Below are positions 15,357 through 41,444 of a stretch of 64,000 bases of DNA, piece after piece (the first letter of the stretch is position 1; each line of letters starts with the position of its first letter). The notes below the pieces were generated by a model. It did not search any database and was not told the DNA's origin. It worked only from the letters and a program-made list of their open reading frames with translations. A program made the translations under genes and the position numbers. This DNA comes from Anaerorudis cellulosivorans (lineage in GTDB: Bacteria > Bacteroidota > Bacteroidia > Bacteroidales > Dysgonomonadaceae), in contig NZ_JAPCWE010000017.1 in assembly GCF_025943985.1 (NCBI RefSeq), positions 1 to 64,000 on the forward strand. The letters run 5' to 3'.

Positions 15357-15373
15357 ATGTTTTATAACATATA
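15357..15373. promoter_or_regulatory. Crp-like palindrome, site A
   Basis: ATGTTTTATAACATATA matches the window's recurring motif ATGTTnTATAAyATATA; the core TGTT-N4-AACA is an inverted repeat. It lies between the divergent EF-G paralog and Ca2+ ATPase genes. Related copies are at 15436 and 41428. Confidence 0.6.
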
Positions 15374-15435
15374 AATAGGATTGATTCTATTTTGTGTGCC
15401 TTGCTATAGGTTTTTTATATGTCGCTGAAAACTAT

Positions 15436-15452
15436 ATGTTCTATAATATATA
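15436..15452. promoter_or_regulatory. Crp-like palindrome, site B
   Basis: ATGTTCTATAATATATA matches the motif ATGTTnTATAAyATATA. It sits inside a wider inverted repeat, ACTATAT at 15431-15437 and ATATAGT at 15448-15454. Seven more bases beyond the motif (GTATTTT) are also shared with the copy upstream of susC. Centre is about 67-74 bp upstream of the predicted Ca2+ ATPase transcription start. Confidence 0.6.
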
Positions 15453-15495
15453 GTATTTTTGCAATACCTTTTAAATCATATAGATTCAAATCGAT

Positions 15496-15511
15496 TATTT
15501 TTGTAATTTTG
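15496..15511 (+). promoter_or_regulatory. Tandem -7 elements upstream of the Ca2+ ATPase, with a long leader
   Basis: TATTTTTG (15496-15503) and TAATTTTG (15504-15511) both fit TAnnTTTG. Starting here would give a leader of about 260 bases before the ATG at 15776. In that leader I see two small hairpins: TCTGCCC paired with GGGTAGA (about 15535-15558, one G-U pair), and GGTG with CACC (15670-15687). I do not recognise a known riboswitch. Confidence 0.4.
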
Positions 15512-15775
15512 TCGGATTAAAGAATAAATAACGCTTCTGCCCATCAAGTAAGGGTAGATGCAAAATGTGTTTCTTGGAATAAGTAGGCATGATAAGACCG
15601 GTATTTATTCAATATACATTGTTTTTGCAAAAGATAAGGTTGCTAATGATTAAGCAATTATGGATGTCAGGTGTAGATCCGGGCACCATGTAAAACCTTG
15701 TATATTTTTTGTATGCCTTAAAAAAATACCTTTCTATTCCATTTATTTATTCAACGGTTTAAAATAGTATTTTAA

Positions 15776-18448
15776 ATGAAATATTTCTATAATCAATCTA
15801 TTGAAGAGATACTTCAACAATTCGGTGTGTCTGCCGAAAAAGGATTGTCGGCTGCTGAAGTGAAAAAACGTCTCGAAACTTATGGCCCGAATCGTCTTCA
15901 ATCCATAAAGCAAAAATCCACTTTACAAATCTTTCTCGATCAGTTTAAAGGATCGATGGTGATGATCCTTTTCGTCGCTGCCATTATTTCGGGAGTAATT
16001 GGTCTGCAAAACGGTGAAGGATTTTTAGATACGATAGTTATTCTTGCCATTTTGGTGGTTAATGCCGTGATCGGAATGGTAGAAGAGAAAAAAGCGCAAT
16101 CTTCCTTAGAAGCGCTGAAAAAGATGAGTGCGCCGCGTTCTAAAGTGCTACGCGAGGGAGAAATTGTCGAAATTTCTTCTACAGAGATCGTTCCCGGCGA
16201 CATTGTTGTGTTGGATACGGGAGATATTGTTCCTGCAGATATGCGACTCTTAGAAGCGGTAAACCTGAAAATCCAGGAATCGGCATTGACCGGTGAATCT
16301 GTTCCGGTAGAAAAAAACGTCAAGACGTTGAATATTGAGGACGTGCCGCTTGGCGATCGCACGAACATGGCGTTCTCAACGTGTGTAGTGACTTATGGTC
16401 GAGGGAAAGGGATTGTTGTGGCGACAGGAATGAATACTGAAGTTGGCAAGATCGCTCATCTCCTTCAACATGCCGAAGGAACTGAAACGCCGATGAGTAA
16501 ACGGTTGGAACAGTTGGGAAAAATATTGGGATATGTCGCTCTTATCATCTGTGCTGTTATTTTTATTATAGGACTGCTTTACGGTAACAATTGGCTTGAA
16601 ATGTTCATGATGGCAGTGAGCCTTGCGGTTGCTGCCATTCCAGAGGGGCTTCAGATTGTTTCTACGTTGGTGCTTTCTATTGGGGTACAGCGGCTCGTCA
16701 AGCTTCATGCCATTGTGCGCAAGTTGCCTTCGGTCGAATCATTGGGGAGTGTTACGGTGATTTGTTCCGACAAAACGGGGACACTTACCCAAAATAAGAT
16801 GACGATAGTAAAAGGATGGACAGTCGGGAACGAAATCGATTTTCGTGAGAAGGGGGTTTTCGAACGTTCGGATTCAGATGGTAAAATATTGTTGCATTCA
16901 GCATTGTTGTGTACGGACGCTCATCTGAGAATGTTTCCTGACGGGAGTCACGAAAACTCGGGCGATCCCACCGAGACAGCTATTGTCGACATTGCGCTGA
17001 ATTTCGGTATGAATAAGAATGAGGAAGAGAAAAAATATCCCCGGGTTGGTGAGGTGCCTTTCGATTCCGAACGGAAGCGCATGGCTACCATCAACAGAAT
17101 GGAAAACGGGCAACTGCGTGTTAATGTGAAAGGCGGGGTTGATGAAGTCTTGAGTGTTACCTCTTTCATCCTTGTTAAGGGCAAGGTTCGTCCGATTACC
17201 CAAGAAGATATTGAATCAATCAGAAGACAAAATGAGAGCATGGCGCAAGATGCTTTACGTGTACTTGCTGTGGCGTATAAAGATATTGACGAACTTCCAG
17301 ATAAAGTGACTGTTGAAACCGTCGAAAATACGTTGGTTTTTGCAGGGTTGATCGGCATGATCGATCCTCCCCGTCCTGAAGTGAAAGAAGCGGTGAGTAA
17401 ATGCAAAATGGCCGGTATACGTCCGGTAATGATCACGGGAGATCATAAGATTACTGCTCTTGCCATTGCTAAAGAGATCGGGATTTACCGTGAAGGCGAT
17501 CAAACCGTCACAGGTTCAGATTTGGAGAATATGTCCGATAGCGAATTGTATCGCAATGTGAAATCGTATTCGGTTTATGCCCGTGTGGCGCCGGTGCACA
17601 AAGTGCGAATCGTGAAAGCATGGCAATCTTATGGCGATATTGTTGCCATGACGGGTGATGGGGTAAACGATGCCCCTGCTTTAAAGCAGGCCGATGTAGG
17701 TGTTGCAATGGGTGTTGTGGGAACTGAGGTGGCAAAGGAAGTGTCGGACATAATCCTTACCGATGATAATTTTGCTACCATTGTCAATGCCGTCGAAGAG
17801 GGACGGCGTATTTACGACAATATTCTCAAAGGCATTCAATATTTGTTATCATCCAATGTTGGTGAGGTCCTGCTCATCCTTATTGCCTCGTTGCTGAATC
17901 TTGGCAATCCACTGACGCCGATTCTTATTCTTTGGATTAATTTGGTAACAGACAGTCTCCCCGCGCTGGCATTGAGTATGGATCCTGCCGAAAATGATAT
18001 TATGAAACGTAAACCGCGAGATCCCCAAAAGGGAATTTTCAGTCGGGGAATGGTTTGGCGCATTATTTATCAGGGAACAACCATCGGGTTGATTTCACTG
18101 GCAGCTTATCTGATCGGATTTAACGATGGGGGTCAACCCTTAGGACAAACCATGGCTTTTGCCGTACTGGGATTTGCCCAGTTGATTCATGTTCGGAATC
18201 TGCATTCCAACAAAATATCATGTTTCAAAATCAGTCCGCTCCTCAACAAACCGTTGATAGGTGCCATTGTTGTTTCGGCAGCGTTTATGGCTTTGATTCT
18301 TCTGATTCCGCCCGTCATGAATATTTTTGGCACAGTCGTCATGGACGGAATGCATTGGACTTATGTATTACTGCTCTCGTTAGTCCCTGTTGTTGTGGTC
18401 GAGTTGATGAAATTGTTGAAATTAAACAGTTCAAAAGACGAATATTAA
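15776..18448 (+). CDS. Calcium-translocating P-type ATPase
   Basis: 890-residue type II P-type ATPase, predicted to export Ca2+ across the inner membrane. Order: N-terminal cation ATPase domain, actuator with TGES near residue 170, phosphorylation motif DKTGTLT with Asp332, nucleotide domain with KGGVDEVL, hinge TGDGVNDAP near 627, and six C-terminal membrane helices. Helix M6 has NLVTD, expected for Ca2+ pumps. Helix M4 reads VAAIPEGLQ where most Ca2+ pumps have PEGLP, a change next to the ion site. No Lys or Ser pattern typical of Na/K pumps is evident. It is monocistronic, with a strong terminator after it. Confidence 0.9.
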   Translation: MKYFYNQSIEEILQQFGVSAEKGLSAAEVKKRLETYGPNRLQSIKQKSTLQIFLDQFKGSMVMILFVAAIISGVIGLQNGEGFLDTIVILAILVVNAVIGMVEEKKAQSSLEALKKMSAPRSKVLREGEIVEISSTEIVPGDIVVLDTGDIVPADMRLLEAVNLKIQESALTGESVPVEKNVKTLNIEDVPLGDRTNMAFSTCVVTYGRGKGIVVATGMNTEVGKIAHLLQHAEGTETPMSKRLEQLGKILGYVALIICAVIFIIGLLYGNNWLEMFMMAVSLAVAAIPEGLQIVSTLVLSIGVQRLVKLHAIVRKLPSVESLGSVTVICSDKTGTLTQNKMTIVKGWTVGNEIDFREKGVFERSDSDGKILLHSALLCTDAHLRMFPDGSHENSGDPTETAIVDIALNFGMNKNEEEKKYPRVGEVPFDSERKRMATINRMENGQLRVNVKGGVDEVLSVTSFILVKGKVRPITQEDIESIRRQNESMAQDALRVLAVAYKDIDELPDKVTVETVENTLVFAGLIGMIDPPRPEVKEAVSKCKMAGIRPVMITGDHKITALAIAKEIGIYREGDQTVTGSDLENMSDSELYRNVKSYSVYARVAPVHKVRIVKAWQSYGDIVAMTGDGVNDAPALKQADVGVAMGVVGTEVAKEVSDIILTDDNFATIVNAVEEGRRIYDNILKGIQYLLSSNVGEVLLILIASLLNLGNPLTPILILWINLVTDSLPALALSMDPAENDIMKRKPRDPQKGIFSRGMVWRIIYQGTTIGLISLAAYLIGFNDGGQPLGQTMAFAVLGFAQLIHVRNLHSNKISCFKISPLLNKPLIGAIVVSAAFMALILLIPPVMNIFGTVVMDGMHWTYVLLLSLVPVVVVELMKLLKLNSSKDEY

Positions 18449-18522
18449 AATCGTGCCGTTTTTTTGTCATTAACGAATGTAAAGGGATTAAAATTCAGCT
18501 TAAATAAATGATAAATTTACAC

Positions 18523-18561
18523 TTACCTTGTTCTTTGAATGGGCAAGGTAAATTTTTTTTT
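18523..18561 (+). terminator. Intrinsic terminator after the Ca2+ ATPase
   Basis: Perfect 8-bp stem TTACCTTG (18523-18530) and CAAGGTAA (18544-18551), followed at once by a run of nine T. Confidence 0.85.
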
Positions 18562-18563
18562 AT

Positions 18564-18571
18564 TATTTTTG
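18564..18571 (+). promoter_or_regulatory. Possible -7 element for the oadGAB operon
   Basis: TATTTTTG fits TAnnTTTG, just after the preceding terminator and 76 bases before oadG. No TTTG at the expected -33 distance, so support is partial. Confidence 0.35.
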
Positions 18572-18647
18572 AAGCCGTAAAAAATTGATTTTTCATCAAA
18601 TTACTTATTTTTCTTTTCAATTTTAAATATATTAATCGATTTATCAT

Positions 18648-18917
18648 ATGGCGAATCTGAATGAAGCTCTTTTTCTTCTGGTTGTAGGAATGCTTACGGT
18701 TTTTGTTATTCTTTTGTTGGTAGTGGCGGTGGGAAATTTTATTATAGGAGTTACTAATCGTTTTCTACCAACTCCACGTATACCAAAGAAAAACGATACC
18801 GAAGGTGATAAGGGTATACATCCCAAAAAAATGGCAGCCATTGTTGCAGCGGTGGATGTCGTTACCAAGGGAAAGGGCAGAATAATTAACATAGGGAAAA
18901 CAAAAAGTACAAAATAA
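18648..18917 (+). CDS. oadG: Sodium-pump decarboxylase gamma subunit (OadG family)
   Basis: 89-residue small membrane protein with one N-terminal transmembrane helix (about 7-35) and a Lys-rich cytoplasmic tail. This is the layout of OadG, which holds the carboxyltransferase and the membrane beta subunit together and binds a metal ion in some members. Sequence alone is weakly informative; the call rests on the helix and on lying six bases ahead of oadA and oadB. No His-rich C-terminus is visible, unlike the Klebsiella protein. Confidence 0.85.
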   Translation: MANLNEALFLLVVGMLTVFVILLLVVAVGNFIIGVTNRFLPTPRIPKKNDTEGDKGIHPKKMAAIVAAVDVVTKGKGRIINIGKTKSTK

Positions 18918-18923
18918 CTAATT

Positions 18924-20825
18924 ATGGCAAAACAGATAGGATTTAGTCTTTTATATCGCGACATGTGGCAGTCGTCGGGAAAATATGTGCCACGAGTAGA
19001 TCAATTGAAAGCCGTAGCTCCTGCTATTATCGACATGGGATGTTTTGCTCGTGTTGAAACCAACGGTGGAGGGTTTGAGCAGATTAACCTGTTGTTTGGT
19101 GAAAATCCAAATATTGCAGTGAGAGAATGGGTGAAACCTTTCAATGAGGCGGGTATTCAAACACACATGCTCGAAAGGGGATTGAACGGTATCCGCATGA
19201 CTCCTGTTCCTGCTGATGTGCGCCGACTGATGTTTCAGGTGAAGAAAAAACAGGGTACCGATATTGCCCGTTCGTTTGACGGATTGAACGATGTCCGCAA
19301 CTTGGAGAATTCCATCAAATTTGCAAAGGAAGCGGGGATGATTTCCCAAGCTGCGCTTTGCATTACCGTTTCACCTATCCATACTGTAGCATATTATACA
19401 CAGTTGGCCGATACATTGATAGAAATGGGTGCGGATGAAATTTGCATAAAAGATATGGCCGGCATAGGACGACCGGTATCGCTGGGCAAGATTGTGAAAA
19501 ATATCAAAACGCGTCATCCTCACGTTCCTGTGCAGTATCACGGTCATGCCGGTCCCGGTTTTCAGATGGCATCGATTCTTGAAGTTGCACTGGCCGGCAT
19601 CGATTACGTTGACGTAGCTATGGAGCCGCTTTCTTGGGGTACTGCTCATGCCGATGTGCTTGCCGTGCAGGCAATGCTGAAGGATGCCGGATTTGCTGTT
19701 CCCGATATCAACATGAAAGCCTATATGAAAGTACGGTCGCTTACACAAAGTTTTATCGACGATTTTCTGGGTTATTACATCAATCCCAAGAATCGGTTGA
19801 TGAATTCGTTGCTTATCGGCCCCGGTTTGCCGGGCGGAATGATGGGGAGCCTGATGGCCGATTTGGAAAATAACCTGGAGTCGCTTAACAGATGGTTGGC
19901 AAAAAACGGCAAACAGGAACTCACGCTGGACGATTTGCTGATAAAATTGTTCGATGAGGTAACCTATATTTGGCCGAAGGTGGGATATCCTCCATTGGTG
20001 ACACCGTTTAGTCAGTATGTGAAAAACCTTGCCCTGATGAACGTGATCCAGATGGAAAAAGGCAAAGAGCGCTGGTCGATGATTGCCGATAACATTTGGG
20101 ATATGATTCTTGGTAAATCGGGTAAACTGCCCGGTAAGGTTGCTCCTGAGCTTGTGGCATTGGCGAAAGAACAAGGAAGGGAATTTTATACCGGCAATCC
20201 GCAGGATTTGTATCCTGATCAATTGGATGAATTCCGTGCCGAGATGAAAAAGAACAATTGGGACTTTGGCCGTGATGACGAAGAACTTTTTGAGTTAGCC
20301 ATGCATCCCGAACAGTACAGAGCATACAAAAGTGGCGAAGCTAGGGCGGCATTCGAAAAAGATTTGGCCGAGAAAAAAGCAGCTGAAAAGCAAAGAAAAG
20401 GAGAGACACCTGTCGTTTCGCTTCAACAAAATAATGAGTATAAGCCGAAGAAGTTAATCATCACTATCGATGATGAGGAATATGAGGTAAATATTTCTTA
20501 CTCGGATGAGGATGTGAATGATAATAAGGGAGCCGATAAATCGGCAAAGGATGTGAAACCTGCCGAAAAATCCTCATCTACTCCAAAAGGGAAAATCAAA
20601 ACGCTTGTTACACCTCTCGAAGGGAAATTTTTTTTGACGAAAGATCCCTCCGAAAAACCTATTAAAGTAGGCGATAAAGTTAAAAAGGGTGATGTAATCG
20701 GATACGTAGAATCCATGAAGACCTATAATACGATTGCTGCCGAAGAGGAGGGGACCGTGGTAGAAATTTGTGTATCGAATGGTGATTCTGTGTTTGAAGA
20801 TGATGTGATTATTAAATTGCAATGA
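18924..20825 (+). CDS. oadA: Biotin-containing carboxyltransferase (oxaloacetate decarboxylase alpha / pyruvate carboxylase B-like)
   Basis: 633 residues: carboxyltransferase TIM barrel (about 1-300), conserved PYC/OADA domain (about 300-470), a Lys/Asp-rich linker and a C-terminal biotinyl domain. The biotin site is ESMKT with Lys599, 34 residues from the end, the usual spacing; the common form is AMKM. The barrel keeps KDMAG with Lys176, which is carbamylated in the family. Other conserved spots differ: RDMWQSS replaces RDAHQS near the start, and the metal motif is HGHAGPG (His206, His208) rather than HTHDTSG. With OadB it should couple decarboxylation to Na+ export; the substrate could be oxaloacetate or a related acid. 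Confidence 0.86.
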   Translation: MAKQIGFSLLYRDMWQSSGKYVPRVDQLKAVAPAIIDMGCFARVETNGGGFEQINLLFGENPNIAVREWVKPFNEAGIQTHMLERGLNGIRMTPVPADVRRLMFQVKKKQGTDIARSFDGLNDVRNLENSIKFAKEAGMISQAALCITVSPIHTVAYYTQLADTLIEMGADEICIKDMAGIGRPVSLGKIVKNIKTRHPHVPVQYHGHAGPGFQMASILEVALAGIDYVDVAMEPLSWGTAHADVLAVQAMLKDAGFAVPDINMKAYMKVRSLTQSFIDDFLGYYINPKNRLMNSLLIGPGLPGGMMGSLMADLENNLESLNRWLAKNGKQELTLDDLLIKLFDEVTYIWPKVGYPPLVTPFSQYVKNLALMNVIQMEKGKERWSMIADNIWDMILGKSGKLPGKVAPELVALAKEQGREFYTGNPQDLYPDQLDEFRAEMKKNNWDFGRDDEELFELAMHPEQYRAYKSGEARAAFEKDLAEKKAAEKQRKGETPVVSLQQNNEYKPKKLIITIDDEEYEVNISYSDEDVNDNKGADKSAKDVKPAEKSSSTPKGKIKTLVTPLEGKFFLTKDPSEKPIKVGDKVKKGDVIGYVESMKTYNTIAAEEEGTVVEICVSNGDSVFEDDVIIKLQ

Positions 20826-20829
20826 GGAT

Positions 20830-22038
20830 ATGGGGGATATTTTTACGGGTTTGTCTGAAATGACGGCTTTTGGGGCTATAGACTTCAAAACCGTTGTAAT
20901 GTGGATTATAGCATTTGTTCTCTTATATTTGGGGATAAGGAAGCAATATGAGCCACTTTTGCTTGTGCCAATTGGCTTTGGAGTGTTGTTGGCAAATTTG
21001 CCCGGCGCCGGATTGGGAATAGTGGATGCATCAGCTGTTCATTATGAAGATGGTACCTATATGAATCTGCTGGAAATAGCAAACGAATACGGCATCATGA
21101 ATTTTCTTTACTACGCGCTCATTAAAACCGGTTTGCTTCCCCCTATCATTTTTATGGGCGTGGGTGCTCTTACCGATTTTGGGCCAATGTTGCGTAATCT
21201 CAAATTATCTTTTTTTGGTGGTGCCGCACAGTTGGGAATTTTTTCGGTGCTGATCGGTGCAGTTTTGATTGGTTTCAATTTGAACGAGGCCGGCTCGTTG
21301 GCAATCATTGGCGGAGCCGATGGGCCTACGGCTATTTATACCACTATTAAGTTGGCACCTCATTTGTTGGGGCCCATTGCGATTGCTGCTTATTCTTACA
21401 TGGCACTGGTGCCGGTGATTATTCCCTTGGTTGCTAAACTGTTGATGACCGAAAATGAATTTAAAATACATATGCGCCACATGGATGAATTGTACCCTCC
21501 CAAACATGCGATCAAACATTTGAAAGTGGTGAAGATTGTTTTCCCTATCGTATTGGGTGTGGTTGTGGCTGTTTTTGTTCCTTCGTCGGCACCCTTGCTC
21601 GGTATGTTGCTGTTCGGAAATTTGGTTAAGGAAATCGGAACTTCCACAAGTCGTCTGGCTGAAGCAGCGTCAGGTCCCATCATGAATACGGCAACCATTT
21701 TTCTTGGTTTGTGTGTGGGGGCTACCATGACGGCCGAGGTATTCCTTTCGCCACAAACATTGGGTATTGTGGTCGGTGGATTTTTGGCTTTCGCCATATC
21801 GGTTGCCGGCGGCATTTTGGGAGCGAAGGTCTATAACATGTTTTCGAATAAAAAGATCAATCCGCTTATCGGGGCAACCGGTTTGAGTGCCGTACCGATG
21901 GCTTCGCGTGTGGCAAACGAAATGGCATTGAAATACGACAAATCGAATCATATTCTGCAATATTGTATGGCAAGTAACGTTTCCGGAGTAATTGGATCGG
22001 CTATTGCCGCAGGGGTATTGATTTCGTTCTTGGCATAA
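20830..22038 (+). CDS. oadB: Sodium ion-translocating decarboxylase beta subunit
   Basis: 402-residue polytopic membrane protein of the OadB/MmdB/GcdB family, which carries out the decarboxylation of carboxybiotin and pumps Na+. About ten hydrophobic segments are present. Family motifs include LGIFSVLIGAVLIGFN, the conserved IGGADGPTAIY near residue 157 with its key Asp, and a C-terminal GATGLSAVPMASRVAN-type segment. It starts four bases after the oadA stop. The gamma, alpha, beta order makes a complete pump; the family does not by itself separate oxaloacetate from methylmalonyl-CoA or glutaconyl-CoA partners. Confidence 0.93.
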   Translation: MGDIFTGLSEMTAFGAIDFKTVVMWIIAFVLLYLGIRKQYEPLLLVPIGFGVLLANLPGAGLGIVDASAVHYEDGTYMNLLEIANEYGIMNFLYYALIKTGLLPPIIFMGVGALTDFGPMLRNLKLSFFGGAAQLGIFSVLIGAVLIGFNLNEAGSLAIIGGADGPTAIYTTIKLAPHLLGPIAIAAYSYMALVPVIIPLVAKLLMTENEFKIHMRHMDELYPPKHAIKHLKVVKIVFPIVLGVVVAVFVPSSAPLLGMLLFGNLVKEIGTSTSRLAEAASGPIMNTATIFLGLCVGATMTAEVFLSPQTLGIVVGGFLAFAISVAGGILGAKVYNMFSNKKINPLIGATGLSAVPMASRVANEMALKYDKSNHILQYCMASNVSGVIGSAIAAGVLISFLA

Positions 22039-22406
22039 GAGAAGAATCGATTCCGGAGTTATTTTTTCATTTCTCAAATTTTGTTTTGGCCATCAACCGT
22101 TTTTTATTCTCTTTCAGAATTTCCGAATGGGTTGCAAGAAGTTTTTATCCTTTGCAGGAAAACGTGATGGGCGGGCAAAAAAATTTAATTCCTTGCCTGA
22201 AAAGTGGATGAGATTGCTTGAAAATTTCATCCCTTTTCTGAAGCCCGTGTTAACTGAAATAACTTAAATCCTCCATCAGAAACCCGATTTGTACGTCTTA
22301 CATCTATTAGTAATATTTTGTTTTATAAACATCCATTATCGATATATTTTTCTGTCAAACAGCTAAATGTGCAACTAAAATAATATTAAAATGATATTTC
22401 ATTTTC
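22039..22406. other. Intergenic region after oadB, no gene seen
   Basis: All frames are broken by stops and I see no coding pattern. A weak inverted repeat TGTTT/AAACA lies at 22319-22331. No convincing terminator follows oadB. Confidence 0.5.
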
Positions 22407-22437
22407 TTTGCTATAACATAAATATTCTATACCTTTG
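22407..22437 (+). promoter_or_regulatory. Consensus Bacteroidota promoter of the AraC-family gene
   Basis: TTTG at 22407-22410, exactly 19 bases, then TACCTTTG at 22430-22437, a perfect -33/-7 match. The spacer contains TATAACATA (22412-22420), equal to one half of the recurring palindrome in this window. Confidence 0.7.
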
Positions 22438-22473
22438 AAAGGTAGAAAGTTGTCCGATAGATAAGGAAAAACA

Positions 22474-22533
22474 ATGAAGGCAAAAACTATTTTAAATCTG
22501 CATTTATCAGGAACACAAGCAATGAGTCCTTAA
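22474..22533 (+). CDS. Possible 19-residue leader peptide upstream of the AraC-family gene
   Basis: A short frame encodes MKAKTILNLHLSGTQAMSP. It begins about 30 bases after the predicted transcription start and has an AAGGA sequence at a good distance. It ends 21 bases before the regulator's ATG. It could be a leader peptide or chance; nothing else supports it. Confidence 0.25.
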   Translation: MKAKTILNLHLSGTQAMSP

Positions 22534-22554
22534 TTAAAATAATAGGATGATAAC

Positions 22555-23448: not shown

Positions 23449-23457
23449 TACCATATC

Positions 23458-23476
23458 GGCTCTATCAGCCTTTTTT
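23458..23476 (+). terminator. Weak intrinsic terminator after the AraC-family gene
   Basis: GGCT (23458-23461) pairs with AGCC (23467-23470), followed by six T. A second GAGCC at 23477-23481 offers an alternative stem. Confidence 0.45.
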
Positions 23477-23655
23477 GAGCCTATCATGAATACTTATCAG
23501 GTTTGTATATTTTTTACCGATTCTATGCCTTTTTTACGTGTATTCCGATTTGTGGCGACAAGTCTTGTATAGATCTCAACCACCTTCTTTGTCTTTATAT
23601 CGTCTTGTATTTTACATTTACTGTAAACTTATTTCAGGACAGACATACCTTCTCC

Positions 23656-23710
23656 GCACCAAGTCCGTACCAAGGCTGCACCATCCTCGCTCCAAGGTCG
23701 CTCCAAGATT
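23656..23710. repeat. Five-unit degenerate 11-bp tandem repeat
   Basis: Consecutive 11-base units: GCACCAAGTCC, GTACCAAGGCT, GCACCATCCTC, GCTCCAAGGTC, GCTCCAAGATT. The consensus is about GCWCCAAGGYC. The run is GC-rich in an otherwise AT-rich gap of about 480 bases between the AraC gene and lemA. Frames crossing the gap look non-coding. A small hairpin, CTGCA with TGCAG then six T, follows at 23723-23745. Confidence 0.7.
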
Positions 23711-23872
23711 TTGCTTTTTTTGCTGCAAAAATGCAGGTGTTTTTTACGATAAATCTGCATAATCCGATGTTTTTCTCCCTGCCTTGAAGCAAGCATGAAG
23801 CAGCCCGGAGATATTTATTTAGGGGTTGCGCTTCGATTTTGAACATAATTCTTTTGTCATCGGATGTTTTTG

Positions 23873-23880
23873 TATATTTG
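23873..23880 (+). promoter_or_regulatory. -7 element upstream of lemA
   Basis: TATATTTG fits TAnnTTTG, 45 bases before the chosen lemA start. A TTTG lies 16 bases upstream, shorter than ideal. It places the transcription start after the earliest in-frame ATG (23839), favouring the later start at 23926. Confidence 0.5.
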
Positions 23881-23925
23881 TCGAAAATTATGGACGAAAA
23901 TTATTTGGTAAAATTCAACAACACA

Positions 23926-33009: not shown

Positions 33010-33050
33010 GCATTAATTTGGACGAAGAGGGGAAATTCCCCTGAATATAT

Positions 33051-33086
33051 AAAAACCGTCATATTGAAAAATATGGCGGTTTTTTA
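33051..33086. terminator. Bidirectional terminator between ompA and the EnvC-like gene
   Basis: AAAAACCGTCATA pairs with TATGGCGGTTTTT (one G-U pair), with A-run and T-run on opposite sides, so it can act on both converging transcripts. It touches the minus-strand stop codon. Confidence 0.85.
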
Positions 33087-34460
33087 ATGTCTAAGCCACG
33101 GTTGAGGATCTAGTTTGTTCGTCTTTTGCCAGAGCTGAAAGTGCATAGTGGAAATGCCTGTGTCCGGATCGGTATAGATCTTTCCTAATGCTTGGCCGGT
33201 TTTTACTTTATCTCCTTGTTTTACATAGGGATCAATGATGTTGGCATAGAATGTATAATAGTCTCCGTGGCGAACAATCATACAGGTGTTTGATCCGGGG
33301 AACGAGAATACTTTTGATACTTCCCCCTCAAATACTGAACGAATAACGGCGCCTTGTTGTGCTTGAATATCGATTCCGTTACTATTGATAGATACATTCC
33401 ATTCGCTGCTTCTGTTAATGCCGAAGTTCGATACAATGGTCGATATTCCGGTTACGGGCATAGGTAATTGCCCTTTATTGGCTGCAAAATTTTTAGAAAG
33501 ATTAAACGTCTCGGCCGAAGCAAGATGTGCCTCTTCAGTATGGGATTTTTGTGTTGGAGATTTTAATTCTTCATGTTTTTCCTGCGACGTTGTTTTTCCT
33601 TCTTCGCTTTTGGCTTTGCTGTTTTTTGCTATTTGTTCCGGTTTTTTCCGCTTTTCTTCGGTTTTTTTTGCTTCGAGAACACGCTGCTTTTCGGCTTCTT
33701 CGGCACGGCGACGAGCTTCGGCTTCCCTTTCCTGACGGGCAACTTCTTCGGCTATTAATTGTTCGATTCGGGCATTCAATTTAGCTGCTTGTTGGCGTTT
33801 AGTTTGAAGAGTTTTTTGTAATTCCCGTTGTTTGCTTTTCGCTTCAGCCATTTCTGTTTGGCGCATTTTTTCTTCGTTGATCAGTTTATTTTGTTCATTT
33901 TGCAACGCAAGCAACGCATTTTGTTTATCGGCTTTAGCTTTTGCAAGTTCACTTTTTTTCTCTGCCAGTTCTGCTTGTTTCTTTTTGATTTCTTCTGCTT
34001 GTTTTTTTTGCCATTTTGAATAATCTTTCAGATATTGCATCCTACGCAGGGATTCTCCCAACGTTTTTCCGGAAAGTATATAAATCAATTTGTTTTCCGC
34101 TCGTTGGTTATTCAGCATTCCTTTAATTGCTTTTGCATAGTTCTTTTGTTTTTTCTCTAATTCATCATTGAGTTTTGCAATTTCCTTTTCCAATTGTTTT
34201 TGTTCTTTCTCAAGAGCAACAATTTCGTTTTGATATACCGTAATCAGTTCTCTCCTTGTTGTGAGTCGTTTATTGATAAGATTGATGCGTTGCAGAAGGG
34301 TTGTGGTATGTTTTTTAACGTCGAGAAAAAGCTTATTTGTGTTTTGAATTTCTTCCTGTAACAATTCTCGTTGTCTTTGTAGCGTTTCGATTTGTTTAGT
34401 TTGAGAAAATAAAGGAAAGCTGAGAAGAAACAGAAACGGTATGATAACGGTTTTTTTCAT
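33084..34460 (-). CDS. EnvC-like coiled-coil protein with degenerate M23 (LytM) domain
   Basis: 458 residues: signal peptide (to about 19), long coiled coil (about 20-255), a Lys/Glu/Ala-rich linker, and a LytM/M23 domain (about 334-458). The domain has lost most metal and catalytic residues: the HxxxD motif is S360-NGI-D364, the middle histidine position is Asn407 (FYANI), and HxH is T438-M-H440. This matches EnvC, whose LytM domain cannot cut but switches on amidases during division. I infer a regulatory role rather than hydrolysis. Its ATG overlaps the stop of the upstream DUF4292 gene (ATGA). Confidence 0.87.
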   Translation of the reverse strand: MKKTVIIPFLFLLSFPLFSQTKQIETLQRQRELLQEEIQNTNKLFLDVKKHTTTLLQRINLINKRLTTRRELITVYQNEIVALEKEQKQLEKEIAKLNDELEKKQKNYAKAIKGMLNNQRAENKLIYILSGKTLGESLRRMQYLKDYSKWQKKQAEEIKKKQAELAEKKSELAKAKADKQNALLALQNEQNKLINEEKMRQTEMAEAKSKQRELQKTLQTKRQQAAKLNARIEQLIAEEVARQEREAEARRRAEEAEKQRVLEAKKTEEKRKKPEQIAKNSKAKSEEGKTTSQEKHEELKSPTQKSHTEEAHLASAETFNLSKNFAANKGQLPMPVTGISTIVSNFGINRSSEWNVSINSNGIDIQAQQGAVIRSVFEGEVSKVFSFPGSNTCMIVRHGDYYTFYANIIDPYVKQGDKVKTGQALGKIYTDPDTGISTMHFQLWQKTNKLDPQPWLRH

Positions 34461-35323
34461 GAATTGTTTGCCGTAATGATTTTTTCGATTTCAGAAAAAT
34501 TAACTTGAGTATAATTATTGGGTATGGTAATCGATAATTCTATAGGTTCGTCGAGTACTATATTAGAATAGTTGATTTCGATATCTAATTTGCGTTTCGG
34601 AGAACTTACTTCAATTTTCATATTATAAGGGAAAATTTGTGATCCAACTCGTGCAAAATCACTATAGCTCCATTGCAGCGAATAATTATTTATAGGATCG
34701 AGCAAATGACAAAATGTGATTCGATCATCGGCATTTACAGAGAAGAAATGTTCGATATTCGTCTCTTCATTTATTGATTGCAGGTAATAATTGGTTGTAG
34801 TTTTTTTATACGCAAATTTGGTATAATCGGTTGGTGAAGTAATGTAGTCTGTTTCCGAAAAAAGCCGGTTTGTCAGCAATGATTGTAATGTATGATAATT
34901 GAACCCTGCTAAAAAGTGGTTTTCAAGTTCTTTTAGCGATTCTTTTACATAACGTTTGTTCATTCGATCGAGAATAATAAGGGTATCCGTATCTATATAA
35001 AAACGAAATATTTCTACTCCAAAAAGCGGTTGAACAGATAGTTGAAGCATTTGATCATTTATAATTTTCAAATGTGCTTTTGAAGCTAAGGTGCGTTTCC
35101 CATTGCTTAATGAAATGTTCAAGTTTGATGAAAAAGAAGAAAAAACCAATTGTTTAGACAATATATCTGAAAAGAGTTCACTATCGGCTTTTTCTATGGT
35201 ATGCAATGAGGGACGGATGATTTCCTTTTTGGTTTTGCACGAATTTACGCTCAAGAGAATTACGCTTGATAAAAAAATAAGGTAATAATTGGCTGCTTTC
35301 ATTTTTTGAAAGTAAGAATTCAT
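34457..35323 (-). CDS. DUF4292 lipoprotein
   Basis: 288 residues with a lipoprotein-type signal, cysteine at residue 29 (LLSVNSC). The body fits DUF4292, a Bacteroidota family with a beta-rich fold that I recall resembling LolA/LolB-like lipid or lipoprotein carriers (RMNKRYVKESL, VQPLFGVEIFRFYID). Function is unproven. The start ATG overlaps the TPR gene stop, and the stop overlaps the EnvC-like start, so it is translationally coupled on both sides. An internal ATG at residue 8 is another possible start. Confidence 0.82.
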   Translation of the reverse strand: MNSYFQKMKAANYYLIFLSSVILLSVNSCKTKKEIIRPSLHTIEKADSELFSDILSKQLVFSSFSSNLNISLSNGKRTLASKAHLKIINDQMLQLSVQPLFGVEIFRFYIDTDTLIILDRMNKRYVKESLKELENHFLAGFNYHTLQSLLTNRLFSETDYITSPTDYTKFAYKKTTTNYYLQSINEETNIEHFFSVNADDRITFCHLLDPINNYSLQWSYSDFARVGSQIFPYNMKIEVSSPKRKLDIEINYSNIVLDEPIELSITIPNNYTQVNFSEIEKIITANNS

Positions 35324-37077
35324 TTTGCTTCGATATATTTTCCGGTTCGAATCTTTTCGTCAAGAGTTTTGGAATCGCTCCCTAATTCTTTGGCTTTTTT
35401 CCATTGCTCCACCGCTTTTTCGGGTTCTCCCGTCATATACAGCACATCGCCATAATGTTCAAAGATTTCGGCAGAAGGCTCTTCTTTACTGTATTTAACA
35501 GCATTTTCTATATAAATCTTAGCCGTAGTATAAGCTCCCTGTTTAAAGAGAACCCATCCATACGTGTCCAAGTAAGTAGGATTTGTCGGCTCCGCTTTCA
35601 CTGTTATGCTGCTCATTTGTTCGGCTTTATCCAGATCTTTTCCTTCTAAGGACAAATAATAACTGTAATTGTTTAATACCGGCAGATTCCGAGGATTGAG
35701 TTTTAACGCTTTTTCGTAATTCTTGAACGCCGCTTCTTTGTTCCCGAGAAAATAATTCAAATCACCTATTTGGCCATAAAAATCGGATTTAAGCATTGGA
35801 TTTTCAATTTTTGCCGATTTCAGCCCTTCTTCAAATACTTCCAATGCTTCTTTATATTTTTTTTGTTGGTATTTTGCGCCTCCCAAGTAAAAGTAAAATT
35901 GAGGAGCTTCGGGAATATGTTTTATAGCTTCAGTGGTAATTTCTATCACTTTATCGATGCTGTCGGGTAAGACAATGCGTAGCATTTGTTCGTATCCGGC
36001 CGGATCGGTTGGATTGGCTTTTGTATAAATTTCAAATTGCTTCATCGCTTCTTCTTTATTCTCTTGCAGCAACAATACGTTTCCATAAATAAGGTTTAGT
36101 AGTGTATTACGAGGATACTGATCGAATAATGTTTCGAAAAGAGAGTTTACCAATTGCATATCGCGTTTGTTTTGCCGAAGGATATCAATGTAGCGGGTAA
36201 GCAATTGAACTTTCGTATCCACATCTATTTCAGTACCCATAATGGCTTTTCGTAGTTCTTCTTCAGCAGCTTCTTCATTCCCCGTTTTTTCATAATAATT
36301 GACCATAGAATGTATCAGATTGGGATAATCCGGGTCAATTGCTTTTGCCTGATTGTAATAATATATGGCTTTATCCGGTTGGTTATCCTGCAAATACAGA
36401 TCCCCTATAAGAACAATATAACGAGGATCGTCAGGATTTTGAGCGATGATATTTTCAATTTCCGTGAAAGCTTTTTCTTTTTGGTTGAGCATGGAATACA
36501 GCTGAAATTTATTGAGGGCTGTAGTTTCTGAAACTCCGGAAATTTTTTCCAATTCGTTTAGTACTTCTACGGCTTTTTGCAGCTCACCACTGTCGGCATA
36601 TGCCTGCGAAAGTTGCATATAGAGCTCCAATTTGGAAGGGTATTCTTTTAGCAAAAACTGATAAATAGCTATTGCTTCCTGATTATTACCCGATTCTTTG
36701 CTCAAACCGGCAAGCATCGTGTTATAGTAATAATTTTTCGGATCGTATTTTACGGCTTTTTTCAAAAAAACCAATGCTTTGCTCTTTTCATCGAGCACAT
36801 TATAAAAAGTTCCCAATTCTGTCAACACATTAGCATTGGTTGAATCGATCGAATAGCAATGCTGTAAATAGTCAAATGCCTCATCGTATTTGCCTTGCAC
36901 TTTGGCATTGATCCCTTCATAAAAATAATAATCGAATTTTCTTTGTTCTTTTTCGTTCAGAGCTATTCCTTTCTTTTCGTTGGCAGGTTGTGTAGATTGA
37001 GCAGTTGCAAAAAGGGCACAAAAAAGAAAAAAAGCAAGGGTAAAACTAGTTAAAAAGAATAATTTTCTTTGATGCAT
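35320..37077 (-). CDS. Secreted tetratricopeptide repeat protein
   Basis: 585 residues: signal peptide (about 1-26) followed by at least ten tetratricopeptide repeats across the whole length, for example YDEAFDYLQHCYSIDSTNANVLTELGTFY and PDKAIYYYNQAKAIDPDYPNLI. TPR arrays mediate protein binding; periplasmic or outer-membrane placement follows from the signal. It lies between dut and the DUF4292 gene in a four-gene minus-strand operon, suggesting an envelope scaffold working with the DUF4292 and EnvC-like proteins. Confidence 0.85.
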   Translation of the reverse strand: MHQRKLFFLTSFTLAFFLFCALFATAQSTQPANEKKGIALNEKEQRKFDYYFYEGINAKVQGKYDEAFDYLQHCYSIDSTNANVLTELGTFYNVLDEKSKALVFLKKAVKYDPKNYYYNTMLAGLSKESGNNQEAIAIYQFLLKEYPSKLELYMQLSQAYADSGELQKAVEVLNELEKISGVSETTALNKFQLYSMLNQKEKAFTEIENIIAQNPDDPRYIVLIGDLYLQDNQPDKAIYYYNQAKAIDPDYPNLIHSMVNYYEKTGNEEAAEEELRKAIMGTEIDVDTKVQLLTRYIDILRQNKRDMQLVNSLFETLFDQYPRNTLLNLIYGNVLLLQENKEEAMKQFEIYTKANPTDPAGYEQMLRIVLPDSIDKVIEITTEAIKHIPEAPQFYFYLGGAKYQQKKYKEALEVFEEGLKSAKIENPMLKSDFYGQIGDLNYFLGNKEAAFKNYEKALKLNPRNLPVLNNYSYYLSLEGKDLDKAEQMSSITVKAEPTNPTYLDTYGWVLFKQGAYTTAKIYIENAVKYSKEEPSAEIFEHYGDVLYMTGEPEKAVEQWKKAKELGSDSKTLDEKIRTGKYIEAK

Positions 37078-37095
37078 TATGTAAACAATATAGCG

Positions 37096-37530
37096 TTAAT
37101 TTTTTCCTGTATGACCAAATCCTCCTGATCCTCTATTGGTTTCTTCCAATTTGCAAACCTCTCGCCATTCAACTCGTGAATGTTCAGTGATGACCATTTG
37201 GCAAATGCGATCTCCATCGTTAATCGTGAATTCTTCATCCGATAAATTAATTAGGATTGCACAGATTTCCCCTCGGTAATCGGCATCGATGGTCCCCGGT
37301 GAATTAACGACTGAAATGCCGTGTTTAATAGCCAAGCCGCTTCTTGGACGAATTTGTGCCTCATACCCTTCCGGTAGTTGGATGAATATACCCGTTGGTA
37401 CCAGTGCACGTTGTAAGGGCTTCAAAACAATAGGTTTATCGATATTGGCACGGAGATCCATTCCTGCCGAATGAAGGGTAGCATATTCCGGTAAAGGATG
37501 TTTGGATTGATTGACAATTTTGACCTGCAT
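37096..37530 (-). CDS. dut: Deoxyuridine 5'-triphosphate nucleotidohydrolase (dUTPase)
   Basis: Hydrolyses dUTP to dUMP, keeping uracil out of DNA and feeding dTMP synthesis. All five trimeric dUTPase motifs are present in 144 residues: [36 protein letters not shown] and [10 protein letters not shown]. The last has His where Ser is usual, a change I believe is common in Bacteroidota. It is the first gene of the minus-strand operon, 18 bases ahead of the TPR gene. Confidence 0.96.
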
Positions 37531-37667
37531 TTTTTTGATATTTCTCTAACAGTGAAAAAAGATAAGATTTTTTATTATGCGAATTTAGGTATTTCTACTC
37601 AAATAATTATCAATTTGATGAAATTTAAGGAAGTTCATTTTCTCTTGCTCCTTTTATGGCACTTATT

Positions 37668-37698
37668 TTTCATGAAAATATAAAAATGCTTATCTTTG
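37668..37698 (+). promoter_or_regulatory. Promoter directly abutting the gene at 37705
   Basis: TTTC at 37668-37671, 19 bases, then TATCTTTG at 37691-37698. The start codon begins only seven bases after the -7 element, so the message is predicted to be leaderless or nearly so. Confidence 0.55.
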
Positions 37699-37704
37699 TG
37701 AGAG

Positions 37705-38433
37705 ATGAATGATCAAGACGATATATTAGGCAGATTGCGTCAGACATTGAATGAGCAAGGGATTGATTCTTTTCATATTCTTGAGGAGCTTGTTCCAATT
37801 GAGGAACAAATGGAGTATTTTCGTCATTTCGAAAGATTGAGAAGAGAAAATGCACCTTTTGTTTGTGACGAGGAAATCGCGATACTTTTTTCACCGGATG
37901 CCTCCATTGAAAGAAAAAAAAGAAGTCTTTCGTTATTAGCATCCATTCCCGATGTTGCAGCATATCGTGCCATTGAAACTTATCATAGCAGCCCGTTAGA
38001 ACCCGAGCTGAAAAACTGGTCGGCAATGGCATTGGTTAGCAGTCGCATTGTCCTTAATTCCAATCTTTCGGGTAAACAGCAGGTGTATATTTCTTCCGGT
38101 TTGGGAGGACACGATAAAAAGCTTCGTTTTTTTGGGCTGTTTACTACGCCAAACAGAGAAAATTTTACCGAGCTTCAGAAAGGGATCGTTGAAAGCGAAT
38201 TTCGTTTCCAATTGGAACAAGCCAATGTTGATATTGAGAAATTCGAAATCAAAGATCATTATTTTATCATTTTGATGCTTGTTCCTTTTGAAATCGATAT
38301 AAAGTCGATTCTTCAAGCTGCTATAAACGAGTGCAATCAATATGGAAATTTTCTGGATACAAAGTTCTTGTTCACTAATGTGAAAATACTGGGTGACGAA
38401 GAAATTGCTAATTTGCTGAAGAAAAAAGATTAA
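37705..38433 (+). CDS. Conserved protein of unknown function upstream of the utilization locus regulator
   Basis: 242 residues, soluble, no signal peptide. The N-terminal part is helical and acidic (MNDQDDILGRLRQTLNEQ, LVPIEEQMEYFRHFERL); the middle contains HEAT-like helical text (SIERKKRSLSLLASIPDVAAYRAIETY). The C-terminal half is alpha/beta with KLRFFGLFTTPNRENF and ends in a Lys-rich tail. I recognise no domain. The regulator gene starts 12 bases after its stop, so the two are probably cotranscribed. No other start codon is close to the promoter. Confidence 0.7.
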   Translation: MNDQDDILGRLRQTLNEQGIDSFHILEELVPIEEQMEYFRHFERLRRENAPFVCDEEIAILFSPDASIERKKRSLSLLASIPDVAAYRAIETYHSSPLEPELKNWSAMALVSSRIVLNSNLSGKQQVYISSGLGGHDKKLRFFGLFTTPNRENFTELQKGIVESEFRFQLEQANVDIEKFEIKDHYFIILMLVPFEIDIKSILQAAINECNQYGNFLDTKFLFTNVKILGDEEIANLLKKKD

Positions 38434-38445
38434 GGAAACCGTTAC

Positions 38446-41331
38446 ATGTTGCCATTTTTTTCGTATAAAAAACAATATTTTGTTTGTTTAGCAATATTTT
38501 TTTTATTCCTTTTTACTACCGTGCAGGCACGAATTCCTTCATTTGTGCCGCCCGTTTATAATTACACCAGCACTATTTATAATGCAGAAAATCAAAATTG
38601 GGCAATAGCTCAGGGTAAAGATGGTGTGATTTATATTGGGAATAACAAAGGCTTGTTGACTTTTGACGGCGTTAACTGGAATTTATATCGTTTGCCGAAT
38701 AATTTGGGAATTAAATCGATCTTTATCGATAAAAACCGCAATCCCGAAAGAATATATGTAGGGTCTTTCGAAGAGTTTGGTTTTTTTGAAAGAAATGCAG
38801 CAAATCGTTTTATTTATCATTCGTTCAAACCTTTAGTGAAGAACTATCAATTTCATAATGATGAGGTTTGGACCATTCAACAATTAAACGATACCCTGTT
38901 TTTTCAGACTTTTTCTTCTTATTTTGTTTACAATGAAAAATGGCCGGAAATTAAATATTTCAAATCTGATCCTGCACCTTTGTACTTTTTTTCGATTAAG
39001 GACACATTGTATGCTCAATACATTAATGAACATTTCTATCGATATAACGGTAATGATTTTGAACTTTTGTTAACCCACGAACAACTCAAAAATGATGAGA
39101 TTGTATCGGTACAACCTTTTGGAAAGAATTTGCTTCTTTTTTCTTCGAAAAGCGGGATATTGGAATATTCGATTCATTCGAACACGCTTTCTGAATGGAA
39201 AACAGCTGTGGATAAAGAATTGAAGAGAGCAAGAATAAATAGGGTTGTATCGATAGCCGATTCAATTTATATTATCGGAACGTTAAGCGACGGAATTTTT
39301 GTTTTAGATATGAAAGGCCAACTGAATTATCATTTAAACCGAAACAACGGGCTTAACAATAATACTGTTCTTGGCCTTTTTTGCGATAATGAAAACAACG
39401 TATGGGTGGCATTAGATAACGGGGTAGCCTATGTTCAGACAAAATCTCCCATCTCCTTTTTCGAACCCGTCGATATTCAGATTGGACTGGTTGAAGATTT
39501 GCTTATCGATAACCATACGTTTTATTTGGCCACCAACCAGGGAATTTATAAGTATTCCGAAACATTGGATAAAATAATTGCTTTGCCGGGATTTGAAATT
39601 CAATCTTGGTTTATTCGGAAGTTTAATGACCAAATTATTATAGGTAATAATGAAGGAACTTCATTCCTAAAAGATGACAAGAATATTCCTGTGATAAATT
39701 CGAGTGGCGGAGGGATGGACATAAAAGCAGTCAATCTTTATGGTCGCGACCTGTTGTTAGAGTCTACTTATTCCGATTTACAGATGTTTAACCAAATTAA
39801 CGGGCAGTGGGTATTCAGCCATAAACTCGATAATTTTTCCGATCTGATCAATCGTATTGAGGTTGATCATACCGGAAATGTTTGGGCTGGTCACATGTAC
39901 AAAGGCGTCTATCGATTACGGATTGATGAGCAATTACAAAAAATTGTCGAAAAAGAATATTTTTCCACGCTCGATTCCCTGCAAAATTATCCAAATCCCA
40001 TTCGGGTAATGAAATTGCGCGGGAGAATTATATTTGCCGATGGGCATGCTTTTTATACGTATGATGATATTGCACAAAAAATCACTCTCTTTGATCAATT
40101 AAACCAAGATCTTTCGGAATTGGCCGATACACATCGAGTGGTTATGGTGAATGACAGTTTATGTTGGTTTGTTCGAAACAATGAATATTCCCTTATTCGT
40201 TATAAAGACGGGCATTATAAGATCCAGGAAAAGATCCCTTTCAGTATCCTGAATAATCCTCCGAATATGGGACGCGGTAATGTTTATGTAGATGATAACG
40301 GAATATCCTATTTTTGTTTGAACGGCGGAATAGGGAAATATGTTCCCGTGAAAAAAACAGATCAAAAAATGTGGCCTCGTTTTGCTTTGTCTTGGGTGTC
40401 TTGTTATAATCGCAAGAGCAATCAAGTAACCTATTTGCCTCTTACTAAAAAGAATGCAATTTCTTATAAAAATAATAACCTGACTTTCCAATTTCAATAT
40501 CCGGACTATTCGAGGAAACCCATTAAAATTGAGTGCCTTCTTGAGGATTATGACTCGGAGTGGATGACTCTTCCTCCCGACTTGAGTGTAAATTATGCGA
40601 ATCTTCCCTCCGGAAATTATATGTTGAAAGCAAGGGTGATAAGCGAGGACGGTCGCGAGTTATCCCAATATACGTTTCCTTTTCAAATAACAACTCCTTG
40701 GTATAAAACAGGTTGGGCTATTTTGTTTTATGTCTTGGCGTTTATGATGCTTACCGGTTGGATTATTAATCAATATCTGAATACCGTTATTCGACGCAAA
40801 AATAAAGCTTTTGCCCAACGGGAAAAAGAAAGGATTGCACAAGTGGAAAGACAGGAGAAAATCATAACCGCTTTGAAAAACGAACAGTTACAAGCCGATT
40901 TAACCCATAAAAGTAAAGAATTGGCCAATGCCACAATGCTTATCATTAATCATGAGGAATTTCTGAATAGTCTCAAAAAAGAGATTCAGCATAATATCCT
41001 TTCAGGGAAGATTCAGCGAACCCAAGGAAACGAACTGATTAAAATGATTGAAAGTAATTTTTCGGAGAAAGATGAATGGACGGTTTTTCAGGATAACTTT
41101 GATCTTATTCACGAAAATTTTTTCAGAAAACTTAAGGAGAGATATCCGTCGCTTACTTCTTCCGACCTTAGATTATGTGCACTTCTTCGGCTGAATTATT
41201 CATCTAAAGATATTGCAAAGATGTTGAACCTTTCCATTAGAGGCGTTGAAGCTGCCCGATATCGCCTAAGAAAAAAATTAGCCCTTGAAGAGAAAGACGA
41301 CTTGATCGCTTTTATGATTAATTTCAAATAA
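38446..41331 (+). CDS. Membrane regulator: beta-propeller, Y_Y_Y domain and LuxR-type HTH
   Basis: 961 residues. A signal-anchor (about 12-30) is followed by a long beta-propeller-like sensor region (about 40-655) with repeats such as YIGNNKGLLTFDGVNWNLY and VWVALDNGVAYVQ. Next come a Y_Y_Y domain (about 665-750), one transmembrane helix (about 755-779), a coiled coil, and a C-terminal LuxR/GerE helix-turn-helix (about 902-945, SSKDIAKMLNLSIRGVEAARYRLRKKL). It resembles the periplasmic half of Bacteroidota hybrid two-component systems but has no histidine kinase or receiver, so it would bind DNA while anchored in the membrane. Its position before susC makes it the probable locus regulator. 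Confidence 0.85.
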   Translation: MLPFFSYKKQYFVCLAIFFLFLFTTVQARIPSFVPPVYNYTSTIYNAENQNWAIAQGKDGVIYIGNNKGLLTFDGVNWNLYRLPNNLGIKSIFIDKNRNPERIYVGSFEEFGFFERNAANRFIYHSFKPLVKNYQFHNDEVWTIQQLNDTLFFQTFSSYFVYNEKWPEIKYFKSDPAPLYFFSIKDTLYAQYINEHFYRYNGNDFELLLTHEQLKNDEIVSVQPFGKNLLLFSSKSGILEYSIHSNTLSEWKTAVDKELKRARINRVVSIADSIYIIGTLSDGIFVLDMKGQLNYHLNRNNGLNNNTVLGLFCDNENNVWVALDNGVAYVQTKSPISFFEPVDIQIGLVEDLLIDNHTFYLATNQGIYKYSETLDKIIALPGFEIQSWFIRKFNDQIIIGNNEGTSFLKDDKNIPVINSSGGGMDIKAVNLYGRDLLLESTYSDLQMFNQINGQWVFSHKLDNFSDLINRIEVDHTGNVWAGHMYKGVYRLRIDEQLQKIVEKEYFSTLDSLQNYPNPIRVMKLRGRIIFADGHAFYTYDDIAQKITLFDQLNQDLSELADTHRVVMVNDSLCWFVRNNEYSLIRYKDGHYKIQEKIPFSILNNPPNMGRGNVYVDDNGISYFCLNGGIGKYVPVKKTDQKMWPRFALSWVSCYNRKSNQVTYLPLTKKNAISYKNNNLTFQFQYPDYSRKPIKIECLLEDYDSEWMTLPPDLSVNYANLPSGNYMLKARVISEDGRELSQYTFPFQITTPWYKTGWAILFYVLAFMMLTGWIINQYLNTVIRRKNKAFAQREKERIAQVERQEKIITALKNEQLQADLTHKSKELANATMLIINHEEFLNSLKKEIQHNILSGKIQRTQGNELIKMIESNFSEKDEWTVFQDNFDLIHENFFRKLKERYPSLTSSDLRLCALLRLNYSSKDIAKMLNLSIRGVEAARYRLRKKLALEEKDDLIAFMINFK

Positions 41332-41427
41332 AACACTTCGTTTTCGAGTCAAGGTTTAACTTTTCAAAAAATCTAATAGACAATGAATTATAAGCTTTTG
41401 TGAGGTGATAAAGTATACTTCAAAAAC

Positions 41428-41444
41428 ATGTTATATAACATATA
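41428..41444. promoter_or_regulatory. Crp-like palindrome, site C, upstream of susC
   Basis: ATGTTATATAACATATA; the first 14 bases are a perfect palindrome. The centre is about 69 bp upstream of the predicted susC transcription start. The same motif occurs twice between the EF-G paralog and the Ca2+ ATPase. Confidence 0.65.

Follow-up and report, generated by a model that had tools for sequence, protein, structure and literature searches.

Predicted Cur operators at the fusA2 and susC promoters of Anaerorudis cellulosivorans

Palindromes at fusA2 and susC

The window analyzed here is a stretch of 64,000 nucleotides from Anaerorudis cellulosivorans (contig NZ_JAPCWE010000017.1, positions 1 to 64,000). 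As described in the initial annotation of this DNA, a 17-base palindromic motif occurs in it at 15357, 15436, and 41428 (sites 1, 2, and 3). All three copies are intergenic and vary only at positions 6 and 12, and those at 15436 and 41428 share a GTATTTT directly on their 3′ side. Sites 1 and 2 lie between fusA2, which encodes EF-G2, and a divergent gene for a Ca2+-type ATPase, and site 3 lies at the promoter of a susC gene. The elements on the fusA2 side are as follows:

13053..15209, minus strand: fusA2, encoding EF-G2 of 718 amino acids (NCBIfam NF058620 EFG2_Bacteroid, 1336.6 bits against a cut-off of 1000)
15243..15284, minus strand: stem-loop ACGACTTTGC / GCAAAGTCGT (15253-15284) with T-run in the fusA2 leader, terminator-like (z −2.73)
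15303..15310, minus strand: fusA2 −7 box TAACTTGC, resembling the sigma-ABfr consensus
15345..15356, minus strand: second, half-degenerate Cur core (plus-strand TGTTAAAGAATT), 13 bp downstream of site 1 and promoter-proximal
15356..15371, minus strand: site 1, predicted Cur site of fusA2 TATGTTATAAAACATA, a perfect match to the published core consensus

The palindrome of the window equals the published consensus of Cur (BT4338), a regulator of the Crp family. The predicted BT4338 palindrome is wwwTATGTTnTAnAACATAwww, and a site was also placed before BT4338 itself (Ravcheev 2013, PMC3878776, section 11). We scored the 16-base core of this consensus, leaving the outer www positions unscored, and found no mismatch in site 1 and one each in sites 2 and 3. 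The TGTT-N4-AACA core, which had been attributed to the motif as a whole, is perfect at just two positions of the 64 kb (15358 and 41429), neither of them in site 2. In Bacteroides thetaiotaomicron, BT4338 is reported to activate fusA2 under carbon limitation via CCTTATGTTACATAACATTGTT, deletion of which abolishes binding and induction. The same report describes fusA2 as the most enriched Cur peak in chromatin immunoprecipitation (ChIP) and the strongest known Cur target in that species, and gut colonization as requiring Cur-driven EF-G2 (PMC6989115).

Close matches are rare in the genome (2.82 Mb in 38 contigs). The pattern ATGTTNTATAAYATATA is found with at most one mismatch at 7 places, against 0 for the backwards pattern, and all three of its exact copies fall inside the window. 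With up to three mismatches the window holds 10 matches, compared with a mean of 2.07 in 100 shuffles. The published 16-mer TATGTTNTANAACATA occurs in the genome with at most one mismatch at 10 places, versus 5 for its backwards control.

A PF13545 search of the genome's proteins revealed two Crp-type proteins, C1 and C6. C1 has a single close Crp relative in each of the 15 genomes searched (50-97% identity; a 16th locus, L062, was outside the survey), and Crp paralogs in three of these genomes share 25-30% identity with C1. The BT4338 deletion primers printed in PMC12548429 supplied upstream DNA of BT4338 for a test of orthology. Of 80 genomes searched in a Bacteroides group, 2 contain the 27 bases upstream of BT4338 that the primer covers, and both matches directly precede a Crp protein that is 67% identical to C1 and 27-28% identical to C6. 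The helix-turn-helix (HTH) stretch TTSNAIRTLS is common to C1 and to the proteins behind the primer matches. This evidence, which runs through the primer DNA and not the BT4338 protein itself, supports C1 as the Cur ortholog.

We propose, with a probability of roughly 0.87, that the motif is the operator of this Cur ortholog, which would act at fusA2 and susC through sites with the spacing, tandem arrangement, autorepression, and leader hairpin described below. Cur is known as the carbon-starvation activator of Bacteroidales, of the Crp type and independent of cAMP. Two of the three palindromes, those of fusA2 and susC, look like conserved Cur sites. The earlier guess of a counterpart to the Cur site is supported by the equality with the published consensus, the rank of fusA2 as top Cur target, the presence of a Cur ortholog, and the conservation of the fusA2 and susC sites. 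The window species resembles B. thetaiotaomicron, where the regulator is also called MalR or 'Crp', in its palindrome consensus, in the sites before fusA2 and cur, and in the Crp-family ortholog. It differs in belonging to another family and in having the susC promoter site within a locus-specific block.

Conservation and geometry at fusA2 and cur

The named fusA2 sample comprised the 80 closest of at least 595 loci. The nearest is that of Bacteroidales bacterium UBA1410 (97% EF-G2 identity), followed by Petrimonas (85%, partial) and Fermentimonas (79%), the latter a member of the Dysgonomonadaceae. A site with at most two mismatches lies within 200 nt upstream of the gene in 36 of the 80 loci. 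Controls gave 0/75 farther upstream, 0/80 within the gene, 3/80 for the backwards pattern, and 0.7 in shuffles, and none of 300 permuted palindromes attained 36 loci.

In the family, fusA2 is encoded in 56 of 61 genomes. We took the 30 closest loci first (29 placeable; in L165 the contig ends at the gene start) and then the 26 more distant ones. All 29 closest placeable loci carry the site, and only the window locus carries two. In each of the 29, the distance between the site center and a −7 box is 41, 42, or 54 bp, compared with 0.7 loci expected from random points; two of these boxes were counted only by allowing the variant TAACTTTC. The reference for these boxes is the sigma-ABfr −7 consensus, TAnnTTTG (PMC7366714). 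The distance from site to start codon is variable (93-412 bp). Close to the window species the fusA2 site and its spacing are strictly kept; with distance in the family both decay.

The two spacings were compared in 110 upstream regions (80 named and 30 of the family, partly from the same or near-identical genomes). Within 450 nt and allowing three mismatches, 83 of them have a site, placed at 41-42 bp in 50, at 54-55 bp in 22, and elsewhere in 11. Every one of the 22 promoters in the 54-55 bp class has a second TGTT-N4-AACA core exactly 13 bp downstream, so that a core stays 41-42 bp from the −7 box. These second cores deviate on average at 0.91 of 8 positions (at most one mismatch in 14/22), against a background of 5.7. 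A second core at +13 is found in 0/50 promoters of the 41-42 bp class. In the window, the second core lies 41 bp from the −7 box and is off at 2 of 8 core positions. When a box at 41-42 bp was required, the named loci included 34 with the tandem (among them 7 in which one core has two mismatches) and 24 with a single core.

Core pairs 13 bp apart, with at most one mismatch in all, number 25 in 777 kb of named loci, and all lie 120-225 nt before fusA2; every other spacing from 10 to 31 gave 0 to 2 pairs in the same DNA. Elsewhere, 604 kb of other loci yielded three distinct pairs, each of them at cur, and the last 35 kb yielded one, at fusA2. In total, 29/29 close 13-bp tandems in the fetched loci are located at fusA2 or cur. 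This tally is not genome-wide, because the loci were chosen around fusA2, cur, and Cur-like sites.

For cur, a script placed the start of a core immediately behind a TAnnTTTG box in 13 of the 18 loci, and a second core follows at +13 in those 13, with 0 to 3 mismatches. By eye, L125 and L223 also have a core after the box, the script having picked another core there; L120, L121, and L131 have none in this position. The tandem would cover the start site of cur itself, a position that suggests that Cur probably represses its own synthesis. In the window species the cur site reaches an E value of 0.52 with the fusA2-trained profile described below.

Downstream of the fusA2 promoter, at least 7 of 8 stem pairs can form between the −7 box and the gene in 28 of the 29 closest family loci, followed by a T-run in 27 of these 28. 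The stem begins 16-31 nt after the −7 box, and its distance to the start codon varies. The stem covaries, with two-sided changes from G-C to A-T, T-A to C-G, and C-G to T-A. By eye, the hairpin is also seen in five more distant in-register family loci and in none of L261, L274, and L279. A terminator scan limited to loops of at most 8 nt did not list it. In Rfam no family reached its gathering score anywhere in the window, and 15200-15800 gave one chance-level match. Within the family, the hairpin keeps a near-fixed distance from the promoter and not from the start codon.

These features suggest how the promoter may work. Cur would bind as a dimer to site 1, to the degenerate core downstream of it, or to both, in each case with a set spacing to the −7 box. 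Once the preferred sugar runs out, it would recruit sigma-ABfr RNA polymerase to fusA2 from this upstream position. The transcript would then pass the terminator-like leader hairpin before the coding region, and attenuation may act there. We give an even chance to a more specific proposal, namely a composite operator of two cores with a spacing of exactly 13 bp (TGTTN4AACA-N-TGTTN4AACA). At fusA2 one core would keep its 41-42 bp to the −7 box, at cur the pair would extend over the start site, and in this family the leader hairpin would serve the fusA2 transcript as a second checkpoint. As the tandem is shared by fusA2 and cur, this one element would drive the strongest starvation target and shut cur.

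Class I and class II sites of CRP in Escherichia coli offer a parallel from general knowledge, in manner of working only, with a dimeric palindrome upstream of the promoter (as at fusA2) or near it (as at susC). Unlike in E. coli, the promoters are of the sigma-ABfr type, the half-site is different, the tandem centers are 13 bp apart, and Bacteroides is described as having no cAMP (PMC10294740). Cur, its consensus, and the control of fusA2 are known; the fixed spacing, the 13-bp tandem cores, and the leader hairpin go beyond the descriptions of the B. thetaiotaomicron regulon in the portions of the literature covered and are apparently unreported. A literature search did not find these three features, with supplementary alignments outside its reach, and a prior description is possible.

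Fixed geometry and tandem together may help account for the top enrichment of fusA2 among the Cur ChIP peaks, and they make Cur activation and autorepression directly testable through spacing and half-site mutants. The last bases of the published 22-bp site are TTGTT. Should B. thetaiotaomicron have the tandem, these would form the first half of a second core, and the published deletion would have affected two sites, each in part. Cur-like sites also occur in environmental relatives, which suggests that the Cur circuit predates the gut niche.

Several observations weigh against this account. The register of 41-42 and 54-55 bp and some box variants (TAACTTTC, TAnnTTTC) were set after inspection of the data. 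Of the 80 named loci, 17 lack a good core in register and 5 lack a box. Only 7 of the 26 more distant family loci have a site (at most two mismatches, 700 nt), 5 of them in register; besides these, there are one one-mismatch core at 42 bp and two tandems with cores at 54 and 41 bp, and further loci have one-mismatch cores out of register, at 58 or 53 bp. Other Cur-like sites lie 17, 18, or 28 bp from a box or have no clear box, and 41-42 bp is therefore no general rule. Furthermore, with up to two mismatches TATGTTNTANAACATA matches the genome 39 times and its backwards control 42 times, showing no excess. Because the two counts are similar, loose matches without conservation carry no meaning.

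The out-of-register cores at 58 or 53 bp (L265, L268, L269, L276; L270, L271, L277, L278, L280) could be weak sites or belong to another register.

The ATPase and susC promoters

Site 2 and the ATPase define the other side of the fusA2 intergenic region:

15435..15450, plus strand: site 2, palindrome TATGTTCTATAATATA with one mismatch, assigned to the ATPase in the initial annotation and lacking conservation (E 0.41)
15454 and 15496, plus strand: other candidate ATPase −7 boxes TATTTTTG, from position only
15504..15511, plus strand: candidate ATPase −7 box TAATTTTG, from position only
15776..18448, plus strand: divergent Ca2+-type P-type ATPase of 890 amino acids (above cut-off only the TIGR01517 PMCA-type and the general P-type model)

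Site 2 could be a genuine, lineage-specific Cur site that places the Ca2+-ATPase under its own starvation control. It has one mismatch to the consensus and lies 62 bp from a perfect TAATTTTG box, and a chance site this near site 1 is unlikely. Nevertheless, it is absent from all three same-genus loci, lacks a perfect core, and reaches an E value of only 0.41 with the fusA2 profile, and a −7-like box TATTTTTG begins only 12 bp from its center. On balance, we regard such a role as doubtful. The initial annotation had named a lack of conservation in related genomes among the findings that would refute its reading; sites 1 and 3 are kept in relatives, and site 2 is not.

Alternatively, the single conserved site between the divergent genes might serve fusA2 and the ATPase alike. 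Among the 29 closest family loci there are 21 in which fusA2 and the ATPase are divergent neighbors and the conserved site lies in between. However, the spacing that is fixed toward fusA2 is not fixed toward the ATPase in these 21 loci, an ATPase ortholog stands beside fusA2 in just 3 of the 80 named loci, and many loci without the ATPase have the site, which makes dual control improbable. Control of the ATPase by site 2, as first supposed, or by a shared site is unsupported; site 2 probably does not make the ATPase a Cur target, or does so in this species only. A long, partly conserved leader (about 15520-15775) precedes the ATPase gene; it is similar in L025 and has no Rfam match.

The susC promoter contains the third palindrome:

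38446..41331, plus strand: sensor/regulator next to susC (Reg_prop, Y_Y_Y; C-terminal LuxR-type HTH by eye and from weak NCBIfam matches)
41405..41466, plus strand: long conserved block (AGTAnnCTTnnAAA-palindrome-GTAnTTTnAA), full length only at the orthologous susC promoter
41427..41442, plus strand: site 3, predicted Cur site of the susC promoter CATGTTATATAACATA, one mismatch to the core consensus
41462..41470, plus strand: candidate susC −7 element TAAATTTTG, imperfect
41525-44563 (start possibly 41537), plus strand: susC, encoding SusC
44585-46054, plus strand: susD, encoding SusD

The site is present in 20/20 orthologous susC promoters (10/10 in a first set and 10/10 in a later one; L116, in which the promoter is not covered, was left out). 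A profile of the 62-base block gave full-length matches (56-62 bits) in 8 of 11 genomes, each solely at the orthologous susC, and partial matches elsewhere. For both fusA2 and susC the initial annotation had found the site itself; it missed that the former belongs to a degenerate 13-bp tandem, as the half farther from the promoter, and that the latter is part of a long conserved block specific to its locus.

Measured to the predicted −7 boxes downstream, the palindrome centers are 54 bp away at fusA2, 62 bp at the ATPase (for one of its three candidate boxes), and about 28 bp at susC (for an imperfect candidate element). The previously given distances to transcription starts (−79, −67 to −74, and −69) were not reproduced. 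A placement usual for an upstream-bound activator holds for fusA2; the susC site is much closer to its box and class-II-like. A single Cur dimer would be positioned there, within the locus-specific block.

It is conceivable that the sensor-regulator encoded next to susC, and not Cur, uses the susC palindrome as its operator and that the likeness of this palindrome to the fusA2 site is convergence. The block is far longer than a Cur site and is complete only at orthologous susC promoters beside the regulator, and GTA...TTT elements 32 bp apart, read by eye as a direct repeat, flank the palindrome. While the full-length flanks are locus-specific, the palindrome is not. Moreover, a profile (R1) was built from 26 distinct fusA2 sites of the family alone and used to score 150 of 2508 first-look candidates in the window species' genome; in its ranking the susC site comes third, behind fusA2 (a training member) in first place and a site upstream of galM in second. 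Variants in susC orthologs (TATGCTTTACAACATA in L114/L115) also repeat the TGCT variant of cur promoters. We therefore consider convergence quite unlikely. The block probably holds an operator of the sensor-regulator in addition to the Cur site, and with both in one block, we propose that the locus needs starvation, through Cur, as well as its own glycan signal.

The polysaccharide utilization locus (41525-53755) encodes SusC/SusD, then two PF10091 proteins, GH3, and GH43, a gene set that presumably points to beta-1,2-glucan.

Other Cur-like sites and the second Crp-type protein

C6, the other Crp/Fnr-type protein of the genome, belongs to the same superfamily as C1, PF13545 finding both, and could bind the motif; yet among the listed matches no site precedes the C6 gene, its HTH differs, and the protein beside the published BT4338 upstream DNA is the C1 ortholog, so we hold this to be very improbable. 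That the three copies are chance AT-rich palindromes fits the lack of genome-wide excess at up to two mismatches, and is contradicted for sites 1 and 3 by their conservation and spacing, leaving it scarcely credible. The exact fusA2 site of B. thetaiotaomicron has 0 matches in 393 genomes of the order.

In five relatives, top profile sites recur before galM and at a contig-end site (C15), beyond which lies, in two relatives, a gene resembling those of extracytoplasmic function (ECF) sigma factors. Top sites also occur there before a GSCFA-type gene and in an intergenic region behind an acyl-CoA ligase gene; the ECF-sigma-like, GSCFA-type, and ligase genes were named by reading their translations. 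In L011, L226, L248, and L252, a conserved Cur-like site lies near 1501, behind the acyl-CoA-ligase-like gene, with a TATCTTTG/C box 18 bp away; the next genes differ, and the site could drive an unannotated RNA. The fusA2 geometry reappears in L228 and L245, where a LacI-type gene is preceded by a −7 box and, 41 bp from that box, a perfect Cur-like site.

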